This document shows positions 4,070 to 29,026 of a DNA stretch of 29,169 nt, piece after piece (positions within the stretch are counted from its first letter, which is position 1; every line of letters begins with the position of its first letter). The translations under genes and the position numbers were made by a program. A model generated the notes under the pieces. It saw nothing but the letters and a program-made list of their open reading frames with translations. It was not told where the DNA came from and ran no database searches. The DNA lies in the IMG/VR virus record IMGVR_UViG_3300025913_000090, positions 1 through 29,169 of that record; one strand, given 5' to 3'. Source of the stretch: a virus.

Positions 4070-4727
4070 TCCACGAACCCATAAAATAGGCCGCCGGACG
4101 ATCTTGCTCGTCAATCTCGCGCTGTAGAAGCTGCGCCCTCATTGCCAGCTCAGCCGGCACCGGAGAGCCGAACATGCCGCAAATCCGGACAGCCAAGAGG
4201 ACGTAGACCGTTTCCTGCCAATCCGGTGGAATATCGACCGTCTGAGAGGCGTCGGTGACCGTCTCGATCTTGCGCAGATAGTCGATCTGGACCGTCGAAT
4301 TCTCAGCCGGCACGGGCCACAGATGGAGGTCCACATTGTCGCGCTGGCGGTTCGAGTAATAGATGCTCGGGTTGCCGGTCTGCGCCTTATTCGGGAGGAT
4401 CTGATAATTGTCGCGGTCGTAGGCCGTCAGGGGGCGCTCATTGGTCGCTGACACGACAAAGCGCACCGCCTGGACATCATACACGTCGTCATCAAGAGCC
4501 GTGGGGTTGGTCGCCGCCAATACAGCGACGGTAGCCGTCTCTTCGCGCCAGAGAGTATAGCCGCGTGTCTCCCAGCTTTTCAGCAGGGCATTCAGCCGGA
4601 CAAGGCTATCCGAAAGCTCATCGGCTGTCGGCTCGGTGCCAGCCGGGATGATGGCAGCCTCCTGCATCGCGATCTTGATCAGGTCGCGGGCAGTCAAGGA
4701 CCAGTCAGTTTCACCCGATGTCGTCAT
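4062..4727 (-). CDS. Head-tail adaptor, P22 gp4-like
   Basis: A 221-residue protein. The N-terminal helical part has the pattern seen in gp4-type adaptors (LTARDLIKIAMQEAAII, then TADELSDSLVRLNALLKSWE). A 'LWPVP' motif follows near residues 136-140, and then a helical C-terminal half. P22 gp4 binds below the portal ring and helps close the filled head. This one precedes the gp10-like gene, as in P22. The start overlaps the zinc-ribbon gene by ATGA. Family membership is inferred from motif and order. Confidence 0.7.
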   Translation of the reverse strand: MTTSGETDWSLTARDLIKIAMQEAAIIPAGTEPTADELSDSLVRLNALLKSWETRGYTLWREETATVAVLAATNPTALDDDVYDVQAVRFVVSATNERPLTAYDRDNYQILPNKAQTGNPSIYYSNRQRDNVDLHLWPVPAENSTVQIDYLRKIETVTDASQTVDIPPDWQETVYVLLAVRICGMFGSPVPAELAMRAQLLQREIDEQDRPAAYFMGSWNG

Positions 4728-4942
4728 AGGTCATCCGCCGTGATCTCGTTGACATCAAGGAAGCGATCGGGCGGGTACGGTCGCGCATCCTTGCGCGGCA
4801 GTCCTTCCGGTCCGAGGCGTGGGGGCGAGTGGTCGGGCGGGCGCAGATCGAAGTCGTCGTCGCACACCAAAAGTCCGGTCCACTCGCGACGAAGGCGCGG
4901 GTAGCGAAAGCCACACCGATCGCAAATGAACGCTCCGTCCAT
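4724..4942 (-). CDS. Small zinc-ribbon protein of the head operon
   Basis: A 72-residue protein. It begins with a Cys-x2-Cys-Gly pair (residues 7-10, CDRCGF), followed by an aromatic-basic stretch RYPRLRREWTGLLVCDDDFD. Short rubredoxin-like ribbons with a conserved W-x-G-x-x-V-C segment are common next to capsid and neck genes in phages. The second Cys pair is reduced here to a single Cys (VCDDDF), so metal binding may be incomplete. The role is unknown. It overlaps the gp4-like gene by ATGA. Confidence 0.6.
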   Translation of the reverse strand: MDGAFICDRCGFRYPRLRREWTGLLVCDDDFDLRPPDHSPPRLGPEGLPRKDARPYPPDRFLDVNEITADDL

Positions 4943-4967
4943 GTGCGTACCTCCGTGATGGAAATGT

Positions 4968-4990
4968 ACCCCGCCTTTTGGGCACGGGGT
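4968..4990 (-). other. Intergenic hairpin after the capsid gene
   Basis: Between the capsid stop (5003) and the zinc-ribbon start (4942) the strand can fold as ACCCC-GT-GCC / loop / GGC-GGGGT, an 8-bp GC-rich stem with a 2-base bulge. No T-run follows on the minus strand, so it is not a classical intrinsic terminator. It could be an RNA-stability or attenuation element setting capsid mRNA level above that of the neck genes. Confidence 0.4.
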
Positions 4991-5002
4991 CTTCCCTGCC
5001 GA

Positions 5003-5911
5003 TTAGGCTCCGGCCGATCCGTAGATCGCGCGGAAGTCACCCCAGCCGTTCGAGAAGCGCATCGTGGCTTTCGCCTTCGCGTTCTCGGTATCGAAGTCGG
5101 CGTCTTTCGACAGTTCGACTTCGCGACGCCAGAACGACAGCATCCCTTCGGGAGCGTCGGTCTGAACGAACCACGCGTCATTGTCCGTGAAGAAGCGGTT
5201 GGACGTGATCTCAGGGATCGTGCCCAACACCTTCATGGCGTTGACGTCGTTATTCGCCGTGCCCTGGCGAAGGTCCGACTTGAAGATGCGCGTCGCGTTG
5301 AACGTGTCATCGGTGTGGATCAGCAGGCGAACCGGCTGGATCATCACCTTCAGACCACGGGCGTTGGTCGCCTGCATGATCGTCTTGACGGCATCTTCGA
5401 CCGCGCTTTCCGAAAGGTCGGCAGCGGTCAGGAGGTTGGACTGATTGCCCGAACGCGTCGGATGGGCAGCCGAGCAAAGCTCAACCGCGTCACCGCCGAC
5501 ATACGAACTGTTGAAAGCCCGGTTGAAGGTGTTAGCGTGGACGATCTCCGCCGTCTGCTTCATCGAATAAGCCAGGCCACGGGCGCGGCGGTTCGAGACT
5601 TCCGAGTACAGATTGTCCTCGATCTCTTCCTTCGTCACCTGATAGCCGAGGCCGTAGACGACGTGGTTGAAAGTGTTGGTGACACCCTCGCCCTCGCTGT
5701 CGTAGCCGACCGACTGGCTTTCGCCCTTGACGCCGGCCAGGCCAAAGCCGGTGACTTCCACCACCTTCTCATAAGCCTTGTCGGAATCGCGCTTCTCGAA
5801 CATCTGCGACCACTGCGCAGGAACGTCCGTGTACTTATGCCCAAAGAGGGCCTTGACACCCGGCCAAAGAAGGCTCGGATGTGCCGAACGGGTAATGATA
5901 CCGCCAGACAT
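5003..5911 (-). CDS. Major capsid protein, Mu gpT-like
   Basis: A 302-residue protein. The N-terminal region (LLWPGVKALFGHKYTD..., followed by FEKRDSDKAYEKVVEVTGFG and then KGESQSVGYDS) and the central GLGYQVTKEEIEDNLY plus 'AVELCSAAHPTRSG' are typical of the Mu gpT / HK97-fold major head protein family. The C-terminal half has 'QPVRLLIHTDD' and 'TDNDAWFVQTDAPEGM'. It would form the icosahedral shell. A Shine-Dalgarno sequence GGAAGG lies about 8 bases before the ATG. The decoration-like gene is just upstream and the scaffold-type genes further upstream. Confidence 0.8.
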   Translation of the reverse strand: MSGGIITRSAHPSLLWPGVKALFGHKYTDVPAQWSQMFEKRDSDKAYEKVVEVTGFGLAGVKGESQSVGYDSEGEGVTNTFNHVVYGLGYQVTKEEIEDNLYSEVSNRRARGLAYSMKQTAEIVHANTFNRAFNSSYVGGDAVELCSAAHPTRSGNQSNLLTAADLSESAVEDAVKTIMQATNARGLKVMIQPVRLLIHTDDTFNATRIFKSDLRQGTANNDVNAMKVLGTIPEITSNRFFTDNDAWFVQTDAPEGMLSFWRREVELSKDADFDTENAKAKATMRFSNGWGDFRAIYGSAGA

Positions 5912-12862: not shown

Positions 12863-13276
12863 TTAAAGCGCGATAGAATGAACTTCCCCGCCGCTGTGTG
12901 TGTCGCGATCAATGGCCAGCTCGACAGCCTTACGAGGGCTCGCGCCGGCCAGCATTGCGCCAATGGCGAACTCACTCCCGCTACCAATGCCCGCCGGGGC
13001 ACGATATGGAAGCTCTACGAAATCCTTTTCGATGTAGCTGACGACGCCACTGGGATGCAGGATGAGTGCGCGGAACTCGTCGGACAGGTCGGGCTTATCA
13101 CCACCATTTATCATGAACTCGCGAAACTTCGCGCAGGAGATCGATGGCCCGCAGCATCCTATGATGCGCCCATCGTCCAAGCGGTGGACCTTTTGGGTGA
13201 ACGCCGTTATTTCTTGCCCGGCGGTAACTTGGCTATCGGCGGCCATGCTCTTGCCGTCCGTCGCTATCGTAGTCAC
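12863..13276 (-). CDS. HslV/proteasome-like Ntn hydrolase
   Basis: A 137-residue protein starting with GTG and reading MTTIATDGKSMAADSQ. After removal of Met it would expose Thr1, the nucleophile of HslV and proteasome beta subunits. The following AAD (Asp13 in mature numbering), the FTQKVHRL strand with a Lys at about 28, GRIIGCCG, and the late GIGSGSEFAIGAMLAGAS all match the HslV plan (IxxGDG.., KVRRL, AGFAGG, AIGSGGPYA). It is shorter than bacterial HslV (about 175). No HslU-type ATPase is seen. The place next to terminase suggests a head-maturation or host-interaction role. Start and preceding stop overlap as GTGA. Confidence 0.75.
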   Translation of the reverse strand: MTTIATDGKSMAADSQVTAGQEITAFTQKVHRLDDGRIIGCCGPSISCAKFREFMINGGDKPDLSDEFRALILHPSGVVSYIEKDFVELPYRAPAGIGSGSEFAIGAMLAGASPRKAVELAIDRDTHSGGEVHSIAL

Positions 13277-13383
13277 TTGCCAGCAATCCGCTCATGCCGA
13301 TCGCTGGCGCGCTGCGTAGCTTGGCGCGCTGCTTCCTTAAGGGCGGCGGATAGAGCGTGAAGTGCTATGAGAGGCCAGTCCAT
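13273..13383 (-). CDS. 36-residue protein coupled to the HslV-like gene
   Basis: A short gene with a strong GAGGTGA ribosome-binding site four bases before its ATG. Its stop overlaps the GTG start of the HslV-like gene (GTGA), the same coupling used throughout the phage. The peptide begins MDWPLIALHALSAALKEAAR and continues as a positively charged amphipathic helix (QRASDRHERIAGK end). Its function is unknown. It could simply couple translation into the protease gene, or be a bound partner. Confidence 0.55.
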   Translation of the reverse strand: MDWPLIALHALSAALKEAARQATQRASDRHERIAGK

Positions 13384-13386
13384 CGC

Positions 13387-13623
13387 TCACCTCTCGATTA
13401 ACCCAGCAAGCCACTCAGTGCCGGAACGCGATGCCAGCATAGGGAGGATGTGCTTGCGCCGGGTGGGCGCTTGCTGGTCGGGCCGAAGCCCAAAGAGTTG
13501 GCGGCGTGACTCTGTGGTCAAAACCCCGCCGCCTTCCACGCACCGCCACACAGGGAGCGCAGAAATGAAAAGAGCTGCAACCCTTTCAGGCGCAGCTCTA
13601 GTAATTACCGATTCACTTAGCAT
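13387..13623 (-). CDS. Possible small protein at the start of the late operon
   Basis: An open frame of up to 78 residues that ends 4 bases before the next gene. The first ATG (13623) lies upstream of the putative late promoter -10 and the frame crosses a terminator, so the true start is more likely a GTG near 13548 or 13537 (about 50 residues). The body TTESRRQLFGLRPDQQAPTR then RKHILPMLASRSGTEWLAGL has protein-like composition, but I recognise no family. It is equally possible that this stretch is untranslated late leader. Confidence 0.35.
   Translation of the reverse strand: MLSESVITRAAPERVAALFISALPVWRCVEGGGVLTTESRRQLFGLRPDQQAPTRRKHILPMLASRSGTEWLAGLIER
13560..13599 (-). terminator. Intrinsic terminator at the early/late boundary
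   Basis: Read leftward, a perfect 8-bp stem AGAGCTGC/GCAGCTCT (13599-13592 paired with 13578-13571) encloses a 13-base loop and is followed at once by TTTTCATTTCT. This is a good rho-independent terminator for the minus strand. It lies just downstream of the last early gene and in front of the late genes, so late expression needs read-through or antitermination. Confidence 0.75.
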
Positions 13624-13643
13624 GCGGGGTGGGGCATTGTCAA
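13614..13643 (-). promoter_or_regulatory. Putative leftward late promoter
   Basis: On the minus strand there is a perfect -35 TTGACA (13643-13638), 18 bases, and -10 TAAGTG (13619-13614) preceded by TGC, an extended -10 feature. Transcription would begin near 13607, only about 8 bases before the terminator stem. The -35 contains the stop codon of the gene before it. The half-operator ACCGATT (13607-13613, plus strand) sits at the expected start point. The -10 is weak by itself. Confidence 0.45.
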
Positions 13644-14176
13644 TAGCTCAATCGCTCTTTCATCGAAATAATATCCGCGACGAATTGAACGACTGTACGC
13701 GCAGCGCTCACCTGATCGTTCTTGCACTCAGTGAGCCGAGATCCCGCATATCCGGCAGGCTCATCGAACCGCACGACGTTCTCGTAGGTGTCCCAATATT
13801 TGGCCGGGAAATACCCCTTGATCCGGTGCAGATCATCCCGCGCCTCAATCTCGCGCAAATTGCCATCGCCAGGGCTGCCGAACACCGTGCGATTGAGGTT
13901 GGCCACCAAGCCGCCCGACGTGCTGATCGCATCCCATAGGGCGCTGCAGTGAGCGATGGCCGCATTCTGGCTGTCGGATAACAGGCCAGCGGTTTGCCAG
14001 CGCGCTATGGGTGTGCCCCCGCGATTGACGACCTTGGTTAAGTTGCGATCGTAGTCGCCATGGCGCGCAGCGAACTCGTTGACGAGCGGCTGTGCGTGAT
14101 CATTCGCAGCTTCCGCGTCCACCAGCTTTTGCAGCGGCCCGCGAGTGTCGATCTTCAGTTTCGTTCGCTTTGCCAT
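13640..14176 (-). CDS. Last early gene; candidate late regulator (unrecognised family)
   Basis: A 178-residue protein. The ATG at 14176 has a strong AAGGGGTAGGGG site; the longer frame to 14281 would run through the previous gene. It is basic at the N-terminus (MAKRTKLKIDTRGPLQKLVD), helical, and has ARWQTAGLLSDSQNAAIAHC, which resembles the 'W..G.l...Q..Aa' segment of some alphaproteobacterial regulator-like phage proteins. No metal or catalytic motif is visible. Being the last gene before a terminator and the late genes, it holds the position of lambda Q or P22 gp23. A regulatory role is inferred from position only. Confidence 0.6.
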   Translation of the reverse strand: MAKRTKLKIDTRGPLQKLVDAEAANDHAQPLVNEFAARHGDYDRNLTKVVNRGGTPIARWQTAGLLSDSQNAAIAHCSALWDAISTSGGLVANLNRTVFGSPGDGNLREIEARDDLHRIKGYFPAKYWDTYENVVRFDEPAGYAGSRLTECKNDQVSAARTVVQFVADIISMKERLSY

Positions 14177-14811: not shown

Positions 14812-15316
14812 TCTTCCCACCTAAAATCGTCTCCAGGTTGGGAGCGGTCGCGGCCATCCTTGCGAGCAGCGTAGCCATCGACTGGCTGACATTCGCCCGC
14901 TCTTCCGCGCTGATCTCTGGGGTTGGCGCCTCAAGCGTTTCGAGCGCCGGGCGGGTGGGCTTGGCGAACTTCTTGCGCCAGTCCCAATCGGCCCGAATTT
15001 CCTTGATGATCGTCGGGACAATCTTGCTCGGGTGATCGGCGGTCTTCATCGCCGCATCACAACCCCGCTTAAGCAAGGCTATCGGGATGCCGTCTAGGGC
15101 GCGGTAGGCGGCACTCAGCCACACCCGCTGGTCCGCTGCGGTCATCCCTACCCCGCTAGTCAGGGCTAGGCATGGTGTCATTTCATTGGCGAACTCTGCC
15201 CGGCTCACCGGGTCGAGGTCGTTGATGTCAGCCATCCGCAACGAAACGGACCGCTGCTCCGATTGAGCGAGAGTCGTTTGCTGCTGAGGGACCAATGGAT
15301 TTTGCGCGGTTGTCAT
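14798..15316 (-). CDS. Replication-region protein of unknown function
   Basis: A 172-residue protein. The first 27 residues are Gln/Ser-rich and likely disordered. The core (MADINDLDPVSRAEFANEMT, then QRVWLSAAYRALDGIPIALL, then HPSKIVPTIIKEIRADWDWR) is helical and conserved-looking. It follows a DUF1376-type gene, the slot where phages often place a helicase loader or its partner, so a replication role is possible. The start is ambiguous: the ATG at 15316 has a GGACGGAA site but gives an 89-base overlap, while the ATG at 15235 gives an 8-base overlap and a weak site. Confidence 0.55.
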   Translation of the reverse strand: MTTAQNPLVPQQQTTLAQSEQRSVSLRMADINDLDPVSRAEFANEMTPCLALTSGVGMTAADQRVWLSAAYRALDGIPIALLKRGCDAAMKTADHPSKIVPTIIKEIRADWDWRKKFAKPTRPALETLEAPTPEISAEERANVSQSMATLLARMAATAPNLETILGGKNGST

Positions 15317-16301
15317 AGTTTCCGTCCATCACTTTGTCGAAGCTGGTGGGGTTCACGATAAAGTCGAAGGTGAACCAGTGCGGCGGGTCTGTTCCGCCAA
15401 GCAGCGGCGATGCTCGCGCTCTGGCGATTGCCGCCACGAAACCGTCGAGCCCCTCGGCCCGCAACCGGTTCCGCAAATCGGTCAGCCGCTTTCCCGAGCA
15501 TCGGGTGACTGTCGGCCACCCGGCTTGGCGAGCATTCTCGTTCCAATGCCGTTGCGCCTCAGCGATCGGCAGAACGGCGCTTTTCGCAGACTGAGGCGTA
15601 GCCTCAGTTCTTTCTTCTTCTACTTGTGGAGGTGGAGGTGGAGGGGCAAGCGTTGGGCAGGCGTTCGGCAGGCGTTCGAACAAGTCATTACAAGCACTTA
15701 GCCGATAATCCGTTGCATCTGCACCCTTAGAAGAGTTGCACCGAATGCAGAGCGGTTGCAGGTTACTTAGCGCGTCACTACCGCCCAAATAGATCGGCAG
15801 GATGTGATCCTTAACCAGTTCGACTCCAGTGGCATGACACTTGACGCACTGGTTTCCTGTGATCGCTACGAGTGCGGCCCAATCATCCTTATCGTGCCTC
15901 CCCTTCTGCCTTGCCTCAGCAAGCCTTGCTGACCGCTTCCTAGCATCGGACAGGCCATCGCCCTTAGGTGGCGTTTCCCACTTGGCGTGTGCCTTTTGAC
16001 TTTGGGTTATCCGGCGCGTTTCAACGTAGCTACGCTCTTTGCTCAAACGGCCCTGAAACCACCGACCATTGTCGAGCGTCCAGAACGCCAAAACGACCGG
16101 TTTGAGCTTCGCCCACTTGGCCCTTGTGACGCCAAGGATCTTAGCCAGGCGCATGTCGTCGTCGGGCAGAGCGCAGCCATCCATGCGCCACGCGATCATA
16201 AGCAGCTTCAGGTATGCGCCGTGCTCTTCAAGCGTCAGGTGGTGCGTGTCCGCCAGATAGGCGTCACCGAACAGCGGAATGGCGGGCGCGGCCTTGCTCA
16301 C
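15228..16301 (-). CDS. DUF1376 replication-type protein with an internal HNH nuclease domain
   Basis: A 357-residue protein in three parts. Residues 1-105 match DUF1376 (MSKAAPAIPLFGDAYLADTH..., HGAYLKLLMIAWRMDGCALP, WFQGRLSKER), a winged-helix module common in phage replication initiators. Residues 142-195 are an HNH endonuclease core: Cys152-x2-Cys155, Asp165-His166-Ile, Asn180, Cys185-x2-Cys188-Asn189 and KG. Residues 245-332 return to the C-terminal part usual for DUF1376 proteins (RHWNENARQAGWPTVTRCSG..., ASPLLGG, FDFIVNPTSFDKVMDGNYD), joined by a Pro-rich linker (residues 217-225). The nuclease thus looks inserted into a two-part replication protein. Start and end overlap neighbours. 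Confidence 0.75.
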   Translation of the reverse strand: MSKAAPAIPLFGDAYLADTHHLTLEEHGAYLKLLMIAWRMDGCALPDDDMRLAKILGVTRAKWAKLKPVVLAFWTLDNGRWFQGRLSKERSYVETRRITQSQKAHAKWETPPKGDGLSDARKRSARLAEARQKGRHDKDDWAALVAITGNQCVKCHATGVELVKDHILPIYLGGSDALSNLQPLCIRCNSSKGADATDYRLSACNDLFERLPNACPTLAPPPPPPQVEEERTEATPQSAKSAVLPIAEAQRHWNENARQAGWPTVTRCSGKRLTDLRNRLRAEGLDGFVAAIARARASPLLGGTDPPHWFTFDFIVNPTSFDKVMDGNYDNRAKSIGPSAANDSRSIGAAVRFVADG

Positions 16302-19505: not shown

Positions 19506-19738
19506 CATCGGGCTTCCGGCGGCGTGCGGTCGCGCGACTGAAGGTATTTCAATGCCGATGCTGGCAGTTCGACGGAGTGCGCCTGGGCTGCCATCATCAC
19601 GCCAAGCCGTTGAGACGGTGGAATTTCGGGGGGCGTTCGTGACGTCCAATAGCTCGCAGTCTGCTGCGGGACGTTCGCCTTGTCGGCGATCGCGCTTGTG
19701 CCTCCGAACGCTTTGAAGATCGCGTGAACTACATGCAT
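19502..19738 (-). CDS. Cro-like HTH protein
   Basis: A 78-residue protein divergent from the repressor. Residues 5-45 (HAIFKAFGGTSAIADKANVP, QQTASYWTSRTPPEIPPSQR) form an HTH of the Cro/YdaS kind. The gene is the first under the leftward promoter at 19746-19774 and would compete with the repressor at the shared operator. Its ATG lies at the predicted transcription start, so the message may have no leader. It ends in a shared CTAG with the convergent gene. Confidence 0.7.
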   Translation of the reverse strand: MHVVHAIFKAFGGTSAIADKANVPQQTASYWTSRTPPEIPPSQRLGVMMAAQAHSVELPASALKYLQSRDRTPPEARC

Positions 19739-19745
19739 ACCGCTC

Positions 19746-19774
19746 TCATTACCGATTATCGGTACTCAATGCAA
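19746..19774 (-). promoter_or_regulatory. Leftward early promoter with embedded operator
   Basis: Minus strand: -35 TTGCAT (19774-19769), 17-base spacer, -10 TAATGA (19751-19746). The spacer ends in ACCGATAATCGG, part of the perfect inverted repeat TACCGA-TTA-TCGGTA (19750-19764). A repressor dimer here would block RNA polymerase. The same layout recurs at the rightward promoter near 20.8 kb. The -35 is a modest match. Confidence 0.6.
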
Positions 19775-19834
19775 GAGGCAGCGTTACCGTTTTTGGCGGA
19801 TTTCGGAATTCTGGACGAACGCCATAATCGGTCC

Positions 19835-20416
19835 ATGGCTGAACCTGCTTTCGATCTGGACCGAGTTAAGGAGGCGATGCGCGACCAGCGCGTCACTCAG
19901 GAAGCGCTGGCGAAGGCTATCGGGCTGACCCACAAGTCGGCGCTGGCCAAGATATTCAAGGGCGATCGGCGCGTTCAAATCGCCGAAGCCGCCAAGATCT
20001 ACGACTTCTTGCGCCTGGCTCCCGAGGGCGCCGTTGGCGTCCAGAGCGTGCCTGTAATAGGCATGGCGTCTGCCGGCCGTTGGCGCGAAGCTGTGGAAAT
20101 GCCAGGTCCGCGCATGACGATCCCCGCCGGCATTGCCAGCAATCGCGCGTTCGCGGTTGAGGTCGTCGGCGACAGCATGAATCTCTTGATCCGGGATGGC
20201 GGCTGGATCGTGATCGACCCCGGCCAAAAGTCGCTTATCGACAGCAAGTGCTACCTTATCCAAAACGGGGAGCACGAAGTCACAGTGAAGGCGTATCGTG
20301 CAAAGCCGCCCCGCTTTGAACCGATGTCAGACAACGAGGACCATCAGTCCTTCCTGGTGAGTGATTGTGATTTCATCGTGCTTGGCCGCGTCGTCTGGAC
20401 AGGTTCGCCACTTTGA
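19835..20416 (+). CDS. CI/LexA-type repressor with S24 autopeptidase domain
   Basis: A 193-residue protein. Residues 8-45 are an HTH (VKEAMRDQRVTQEALAKAIG, LTHKSALAKIF). Residues 72-190 are an S24 peptidase: cleavage site Ala80-Gly81 in GMASAGRW, the nucleophile Ser114 in VVGDSMN and the base Lys152 in EVTVKAYRA. RecA filaments should therefore trigger self-cleavage and induction. The ATG at 19835 is chosen because the HTH starts just after it and longer versions would be encoded through the operator. The ribosome-binding site is poor. It should bind the ACCGATTATCGGT operators. Confidence 0.85.
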   Translation: MAEPAFDLDRVKEAMRDQRVTQEALAKAIGLTHKSALAKIFKGDRRVQIAEAAKIYDFLRLAPEGAVGVQSVPVIGMASAGRWREAVEMPGPRMTIPAGIASNRAFAVEVVGDSMNLLIRDGGWIVIDPGQKSLIDSKCYLIQNGEHEVTVKAYRAKPPRFEPMSDNEDHQSFLVSDCDFIVLGRVVWTGSPL

Positions 20417-27723: not shown

Positions 27724-28097
27724 CAGCGCCCGTCCCCACCAGCCCCTTGCTTGAGCGCAGCCGATCGCCCGAGGACTGGTGTGCGGCGTTCGTCGCTAAG
27801 GGTATATACATTTCCGAGCGCACGTTGCGCACGAAGGCTCGGCAGCTTGGCGCGTGCCATATCATCGGGAACGCCATGCTGATCACGCCCGAACAGATAG
27901 ACTTGATCCTGGAGGACAGCGCGTGCCGCTCGAAGCATATGCCCGTGGCAAAACATGGTGGGCCAAAGGGCGGGTCGAATACAACGGGCTCCCCATCACC
28001 GATTACATCCGGGAAAGCACTGGAGCATCTTCGAAGGCTGGCGCGCAACAATGGATCACCGACCGGACGGCGCTCGAAGAACGCCGCTACCTGTTAG
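27720..28097 (+). CDS. Excisionase-like HTH protein
   Basis: A 125-residue protein. Residues 15-68 (SPEDWCAAFVAKGIYISERT, LRTKARQLGACHIIGNAMLI, TPEQIDLIL) form a winged-HTH of the excisionase kind: a helix-turn-helix followed by a 'gac.iig.a.li' beta wing. The C-terminal 57 residues are basic and disordered and are encoded in the same bases as the start of the integrase, in another frame. Position just before int fits Xis, which directs the integrase to excise the prophage. Confidence 0.65.
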   Translation: MTAPVPTSPLLERSRSPEDWCAAFVAKGIYISERTLRTKARQLGACHIIGNAMLITPEQIDLILEDSACRSKHMPVAKHGGPKGGSNTTGSPSPITSGKALEHLRRLARNNGSPTGRRSKNAATC

Positions 28098-29026
28098 GCG
28101 ATGCCCATGAAGAACACGTCTTCACCTTCAATGACGCGGTCGTGCTGTACAAGCCAACGCCCGACATGGCGAAATATCTGATGCCGCTGGTCGCGCGCCT
28201 TGGGCCGATCCCGGTCAAACTGATCACACCGAAGGTCATCCGCGACCTTGGCCCCGAGCTGTACCCGAAGAACGCTACCGATAGCTGGCGCCGCTGGGTC
28301 ATCGCCCCGGCCCGCGCCGTCATCAACAATGCCCACGCACTAGGCCGGTGCGGCTATATTCGCGTTGACGGCTACCCCAAAGAGGAACGTATCAAGCAAG
28401 ACAAGCGGCGCGGGAAGCGCAGCCGCGTCGCGAAGGTGCCTGGAAGCTGGGAATGGCTGCTGAAATTCCGCCAGCATGCGAACAAGCGCAACCGGGCATT
28501 GGCCCTCTTGATGTTCACGACTGGCGCGCGGATCGGGCAGGCGATCGAGATGCACCCCACAGACCACCTGAAGCTTGACGAGGGCATGGTGTGCATTCCT
28601 GGCGCAAAGGGGCACGATGATCGTTGGCTTACCGTCCCCGAGGAATTGATTGCCGAGCTACGCGCACTCACACCGACCACCCCGCGCGGCTGGGATCGGC
28701 GCTACAAGGCCAACCTGCGGGTGTTCGGCTATGCGAGCAAGGACGGCCCCCGCAAGAACTGGATCACGGCGTGCAAGCGCGCTGGCATTCCTTACCTCCC
28801 GCCGCACTCTGCCGGCCGTCATGGCTTCGGGCAGGAAATGCGCGTGCGCCAGGGCGTCGACAAGAAGGCTGTCGAGAGCTTCGGCGGATGGTCCCCGCAG
28901 GGCGATATGGTCGACAAGATATACACGCATAGCGAGGACCACGACGGCAAGATTTTGGAGGCCTTCCGTACAGGTCTCGTACAAGCCGAAAAAAGCACTG
29001 GCCTCAAACTGGCAGAAATGCTATGA
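27923..29026 (+). CDS. int: Tyrosine-recombinase integrase
   Basis: A 367-residue protein. The GTG at 27923, with GGAGG seven bases upstream, is preferred over an ATG 69 bases further up. The arm-binding N-terminus has RGKTWWAKGRVEYNGLPITD and TGASSKAGAQQWI. Core-binding and catalytic domains follow, with Arg203 (TTGARIGQA), Lys229 (GAKGHDD), His295-x3-Arg299-His300 (HSAGRH), Trp323 (GGW) and the nucleophile Tyr334 (KIYTH). It inserts the phage DNA at a tRNA gene; the matching tRNA fragment starts 20 bases after the stop. It overlaps the xis-like gene by 175 bases. Confidence 0.88.
   Translation: MPLEAYARGKTWWAKGRVEYNGLPITDYIRESTGASSKAGAQQWITDRTALEERRYLLGDAHEEHVFTFNDAVVLYKPTPDMAKYLMPLVARLGPIPVKLITPKVIRDLGPELYPKNATDSWRRWVIAPARAVINNAHALGRCGYIRVDGYPKEERIKQDKRRGKRSRVAKVPGSWEWLLKFRQHANKRNRALALLMFTTGARIGQAIEMHPTDHLKLDEGMVCIPGAKGHDDRWLTVPEELIAELRALTPTTPRGWDRRYKANLRVFGYASKDGPRKNWITACKRAGIPYLPPHSAGRHGFGQEMRVRQGVDKKAVESFGGWSPQGDMVDKIYTHSEDHDGKILEAFRTGLVQAEKSTGLKLAEML

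Follow-up and report, generated by a model that had tools for sequence, protein, structure and literature searches.

A candidate Q-type late-gene switch and its promoter–hairpin element in phages of sphingomonads

In this study, we describe a promoter–hairpin element at the early/late boundary of a phage genome, which is probably a late-gene switch operated by a 178-residue protein that acts as a Q-type processive antiterminator. In the best reading of the sequences, this is a new Q-type antitermination module: the system would work like Q, yet the protein is by sequence no member of a known Q family. Comparison of relatives established a conserved layout, a covarying hairpin, a pairing of protein and spacer types and a position before unrelated terminases. 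From these features we infer the start site, termination, loading of the protein and antitermination (read-through). In the proposed mechanism, the 178-residue protein would be the product of the last gene of the early operon. RNA polymerase would start at a promoter that overlaps the stop codon of this gene and, without the protein, would make a transcript of about 40 nt that ends at the hairpin. Once the protein had accumulated, its C-terminal helix-turn-helix would bind an element between the -35 and -10 and the protein would be loaded onto the polymerase near the promoter. The modified polymerase would then pass the hairpin, and terminase, portal and head genes would be transcribed.

Results

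Layout of the window

The window, i.e. the whole stretch of DNA that was analysed (29,169 nucleotides), is the complete IMG/VR record. It carries an integrase gene (27854-29026) and a gene for a CI-like repressor (19724-20416), and leftward replication genes are followed by the 178-aa gene, the small and large terminase, portal and head genes. Integrase, repressor and this gene order therefore place the site in a temperate phage and at its early/late boundary, where an earlier note made from the sequence alone had put it. Direct reading also bore out the leftward TTGACA-18-TAAGTG promoter of that note, with TGC before the -10 and a predicted start about 7-8 bases before a perfect 8-bp stem with a T-rich tail. 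On the minus strand, TTGACA (13643-13638) is followed by an 18-nt spacer, TAAGTG (13619-13614), 14 nt, the hairpin (13599-13571) and the T-rich tail; 3' of TAAGTG the strand reads AATCGGTAATTACT, then AGAGCTGC-N13-GCAGCTCT, then TTTCATTTC. The features are:

13640..14176, minus strand: gene of the 178-residue Q-like protein, family A2/A7 (ATG at 14176, stop codon at 13642-13640)
13638..13643, minus strand: -35 element TTGACA, overlapping the TGA stop codon of the 178-aa gene
13620..13637, minus strand: promoter spacer ATGCCCCACCCCGCATGC, type B/C, putative binding element of the Q-like protein; the spacer type tracks the protein C-terminus
13614..13619, minus strand: weak -10-like hexamer TAAGTG with TGC before it, read from the sequence
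13606, minus strand: predicted transcription start (A), placed by spacing
13571..13599, minus strand: hairpin at about +8 to +36 with GNRA loop and one-base bulge, a putative tR'-like terminator judged by pairing and covariation
13562..13570, minus strand: T-rich tail TTTCATTTC
13403..13477, minus strand: late leader domain closed by CCAGCAAGC/GCTTGCTGG, after hairpin GGGCTTCGGCCC; conserved in relatives
13273..13383, minus strand: first late ORF, 36 aa (MDWPLIALHALSAALKEAARQ...), with its start codon after the leader

A generic sigma70 scan did not list the window promoter because TAAGTG is without T at position 6. In relatives the -35 is conserved as TTGAC/TTGCA, and the -10 position of L003, L034 and L011 holds TAAGGC or TAAAGC. 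No Rfam family reached its gathering score in the window; a match to Acido-1 on the other strand (E 1.4) was taken as chance. A 78-aa ORF (13387-13623, minus strand) is probably spurious, because relatives keep the DNA but the frames break.

Three other parts of the window were recorded, all on the minus strand. About 65 bp with their own GGCGGCG/CGCCGCC inverted repeat (13500-13562) lie between terminator and leader and are missing in relatives. The late operon holds a gene for an HslV-type peptidase (12863-13276, phrog_1040) directly before the terminase genes, and a DUF1376 primosomal protein (15228-16301) has an HNH endonuclease domain in its middle.

Recurrence of the element in relatives

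The window alone proves nothing, since an equal or better pair of TTGA[CT] and T-tailed hairpin occurred in 7 of 60 dinucleotide shuffles of the whole 29 kb. It is the conservation in relatives, as read from their sequences, that establishes the element. Scans for the protein family yielded 56 loci in viral contigs and 8 in bacterial genomes, all eight of them Sphingomonas. Under a strict rule (TTGAC, then a GC-rich hairpin beginning 37-56 nt later, with a T-containing tail), the element was found on the gene strand downstream of 178-aa homologues in 26 of 53 non-redundant loci. The reverse strand gave 0/53 and shuffled sets 0.1 each. Most loci that failed the rule have the element on inspection, some in versions with two hairpins, and it may adjoin the stop codon of the homologue or lie as far as 1.6 kb downstream. 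Inspection of the downstream DNA did not reveal it in L051, L055/L056 and L071. One further family member (L032, 259-696) has an in-frame stop inside the DNA-reading segment, and the promoter element was not found downstream; this module looks as if it had decayed.

When 200 genomes of the host family were searched as a held-out test, three further loci came to light. Two of them, L110 and L111, encode NRS proteins and have type A spacers (both terms are defined below); L112 is very divergent and has a different spacer, but its layout is preserved. In L046 and L047, which were classed later, DQ proteins accompany type B spacers. A large terminase lies about 0.5-2.1 kb downstream in nine of ten tested loci, and these terminases belong to four unrelated PHROGs (2, 9, 15, 38). 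Therefore, the element is associated with the regulator and the early/late boundary rather than with one packaging system.

A search of phage DNA gave no match to the region. The record L014 (PP496355), named Microcystis phage Mvi-Yong1342-1, has a near copy of its protein and element within a Sphingomonas-family genome (L110); its name may thus refer to the culture and not to the true host. In L062, a tRNA-Gly (TCC) gene (1929-2002) follows the late promoter element at a distance of about 270 nt.

Spacer motif and protein C-terminus

Going beyond the earlier note, sequence comparison indicates that the spacer motif is the key part of the element. There are two main motifs, type A (GGTGCGCA-N-CTAAGTG) and type B/C (CACCCCCGCA; window version CCCCACCCCGCAT), and type B sites have a conserved A at the predicted start position. 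The motif follows the C-terminal segment of the protein: proteins with about LAxNxRSAxDAA (NRS) have a type A spacer (23 loci) and those with about LTxCRNDQVxAAR (DQ) a type B spacer (16 loci), with no crossed pairings and six loci in neither class. The C-terminal helix-turn-helix of the window protein is of the DQ type (LTECKNDQVSAAR).

Because common descent inflates the P value of this pairing (2.7e-11), the weight is carried by domain swaps. L052, L053 and L054 have N-termini 94-98% identical to those of DQ-type proteins, but NRS C-termini and type A spacers. The N-termini of L035 and L065 lie close to the clade of the window, yet both are NRS with type A. On a tree of the N-termini each trait needs five changes; the two well-supported independent contrasts agree, a number that cannot reach significance in a sign test.

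In the reverse direction, the spacer motifs alone were searched against 2.9 million viral contigs and gave 13 matches (5 type A, 8 type B). Twelve of the 13 come from contigs with the protein family, eleven showing the protein in the fetched piece; one match, L121, is part of the L084 contig. The promoter match L120 from this search was judged chance. Thus read, the spacer is the putative binding element of the Q-like protein.

Two other sites were observed. The spacer ATGCGGGGTGTGGCAT of L011 (2081-2110) nearly equals the window's ATGCCCCACCCCGCAT in reverse complement; the site looks inverted, or it may be read as a palindrome. In L008/L009 (around 4344-5100), the Q position is occupied by a protein of 190 aa to which no relation could be detected, with a different spacer and the same leader; here the regulator was apparently exchanged together with its DNA element.

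The 178-residue protein

The earlier note had remarked that the 178-residue protein is not a recognised Q, and this held: no profile in Pfam or PHROGs that is named as a Q or antitermination family matched any of the 38 members. No Pfam family fits the 178-aa family, nor does a named PHROG family. A sequence search of solved structures returned nothing useful, and no match to the protein was found in plasmids. The AlphaFold model has a confident helical core. Compared with the PDB, the first model had sigma region 4 domains and Q21 among its top matches (Z about 7); the match to the Q21 loading complex (6p18, Z 6.9 over 91 residues) is middling, as a Z below 8 may mean a common arrangement. 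With the second model Q21 was not listed, and the only match above Z 5 was sigma28.

A link to the DUF6456 proteins GafZ (with GafY) of Caulobacter and GafA of Rhodobacter, which regulate gene transfer agents, is likely but unproven from models and sequences; all of these systems are alphaproteobacterial (PMC11150451). For its action as an antiterminator, GafZ depends on a palindromic element, ZBE, between -35 and -10 (PMC11150451). The element between -35 and -10 and the sigma-like helix-turn-helix are common to GafZ/GafA and the present system, antitermination being reported for GafZ. Structures and bridging sequences also connect the 178-aa family weakly to DUF6456: Foldseek against BFVD found DUF6456 phage proteins with E values of 3.6e-4 and 7.7e-4 (one per model; prob 1.00), and phrog_21451, which matches 12 of the 38 members (best 1e-5), also matches a protein passing the DUF6456 cut-off and has matches in Caulobacter too. 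However, none of the 38 members reaches the curated Pfam cut-off of DUF6456 (PF20057), and direct profile comparison of the family with DUF6456 by hhalign is weak (P 0.004-0.007, probability 5-9%). Unlike in GafZ, where the terminator follows the first gene, the terminator would here lie at +8 to +36.

The main rival explanation is an activator role without antitermination. The protein would recruit polymerase to the late promoter with a sigma-region-4-like domain, as proposed for GafA, and offset the weak -10 through its binding to the spacer, and the hairpin would only insulate or tune the leader. The -10 hexamers are indeed weak, especially in type A sites, the fold match is sigma-4-like, and RcGafA is reported to activate via RNA polymerase omega (PMC11150451). 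We nevertheless consider a pure activator unlikely, as diverse phages keep a GC-rich hairpin with a T tail 40-45 nt after the -35, and such a hairpin would block the activated transcript; moreover, GafZ, the closest studied candidate, antiterminates.

Hairpin

In the window, the stem first described as 8 bp and perfect is part of a full hairpin of about 12 pairs with a GAAA tetraloop and a one-base 3' bulge. Compared among relatives, the hairpin is a conserved structure and more than a stem, and it is followed by a conserved leader; neither was part of the earlier note. Across 26 aligned copies, standard pairs fill 96.5% of cells, and compensatory changes affect both partners in 8 of the 11 pairs. 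Not one shuffle out of 500 came near this pairing, nor did any shifted register.

The hairpin probably terminates transcription, judged by its pairing and its tail: T is enriched after it (3.6 of 8 vs 1.6 background). Several relatives have weak T tails. These need not rule out a terminator role, because tB of the AlpA system is a weak terminator that relies on NusA (PMC9371919).

Alternatively, the hairpin might be no terminator but a signal in the nascent RNA, as nut and put are, which aids loading or itself alters the polymerase. This would fit the recurring GNRA loop and bulge and the T-poor tails of L124, L123 and L053. We regard it as improbable, since T is enriched after the hairpin and since L035, L008, L074 and L063 carry other, unrelated hairpins with T tails, in some cases in second place, as a generic terminator would predict. 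A cos or pac packaging site, or a chance inverted repeat near the terminase gene, is highly improbable although the element adjoins the terminase and is not significant in the window alone: it recurs in dozens of loci and is tied to the C-terminus of the protein and not to terminase type, and this independence argues against a packaging site.

For the preferred reading, a terminator overridden by the Q-like protein, a pause signal near the start is of interest, as lambdoid Q proteins and AlpA need a sigma-pause element. The pause hexamer [TC]ANNNT was not enriched in the initial transcribed region (6 of 46 sites vs 11.8 expected from shuffles), where the start is a predicted one and the host consensus may differ; the outcome weighs against the preferred reading. 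Either the host sigma reads another sequence, or loading differs. It is tempting to speculate on a hybrid form of loading that would need two specific signals: the DNA spacer, read by the C-terminus, and the hairpin at +8 to +36, which would also serve in the RNA as a specific cue for pausing or loading. This idea, based on the GNRA loop and bulge that recur among the hairpins, is doubtful. If true, Q-type (DNA-loaded) and N/put-type (RNA-loaded) antitermination would be combined in about 80 bp, in a family sister to GafZ/GafA.

Late leader

The leader (about 13494-13381, minus strand) consists of a UUCG hairpin, the domain closed by CCAGCAAGC/GCTTGCTGG, TTAATCGAG and the ribosome site; at its end, TTAATYGAG precedes a Shine-Dalgarno site. 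In more distant phages, other stems close the domain in this position (CCCGCCAGC/GCTGGCGGG, CCCCTCCGA/TCGGAGGGG and CCCCGGTCACAC/GTGTGATCGGGG). A closing stem that changes its sequence but keeps its place suggests that selection maintains an RNA structure here. Covariation is scarce among the near-identical members, and for the window only, stem P1 is reached in 10 of 30 shuffles (modest significance). The leader may serve translation control of the late mRNA or be an aid to antitermination. By eye, L003 and L035 have short ORFs similar to the 36-aa ORF.

A boxA reading of GCTCTTTT was rejected, as it is gone in relatives with other stems. L021 and L023, found in a scan with the leader pattern, were judged chance matches.

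Discussion

The layout was compared in the earlier note to lambda PR'-tR', and the recurrence after the 178-aa family, the position before the terminase and the covariation of spacer and C-terminus, which is what a Q protein and its binding element would be expected to show, lend support to this comparison. Like Q of phage 21 and of lambda at PR'-tR', the system would be a late switch at the early/late boundary with a spacer element and a promoter-proximal terminator (PMC6606751); Q21 has a sigma-region-4-like fold, and its element, QBE, lies at the same place in the promoter spacer (PMC6606751). However, there is no sequence similarity to these Q proteins, the binding motifs differ, and a -10-like pause element was not found here by simple consensus. 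The leader before the hairpin is also very short here. In lambda, about 190 nt separate tR' from the start.

Pseudomonas AlpA at PalpB-tB has an element (ABE) between -35 and -10, a C-terminal helix-turn-helix and a weak downstream terminator, tB, as would the present system (PMC9371919). Unlike the latter, AlpA controls host lysis genes and needs a -10-like pause sequence, and no sequence relation was found. A third comparison is with antitermination signals in RNA. HK022 put and lambda nut are conserved RNA elements at the 5' end of a phage transcript. The conserved hairpin resembles them in its predicted place at the 5' end, but here the specificity would lie in promoter DNA and tracks a protein, and the hairpin has a T-rich tail.

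We found no publication on late control in sphingomonad phages in the literature searched. The possibility raised in the earlier note, an unstudied antitermination system of sphingomonad phages, is supported by the comparative data, from which we infer termination and its override by the protein. If this is true, sphingomonad phages gain a Q-type switch with a readable code between C-terminus and spacer. The code would already have been swapped more than once in nature, and the pairing of protein type and DNA word is visible across dozens of phages. The spacer motif would find late promoters in uncharacterised prophages through sequence search alone. Moreover, given the likeness to GafZ/GafA, the antiterminator of gene transfer agents may have come from phages.
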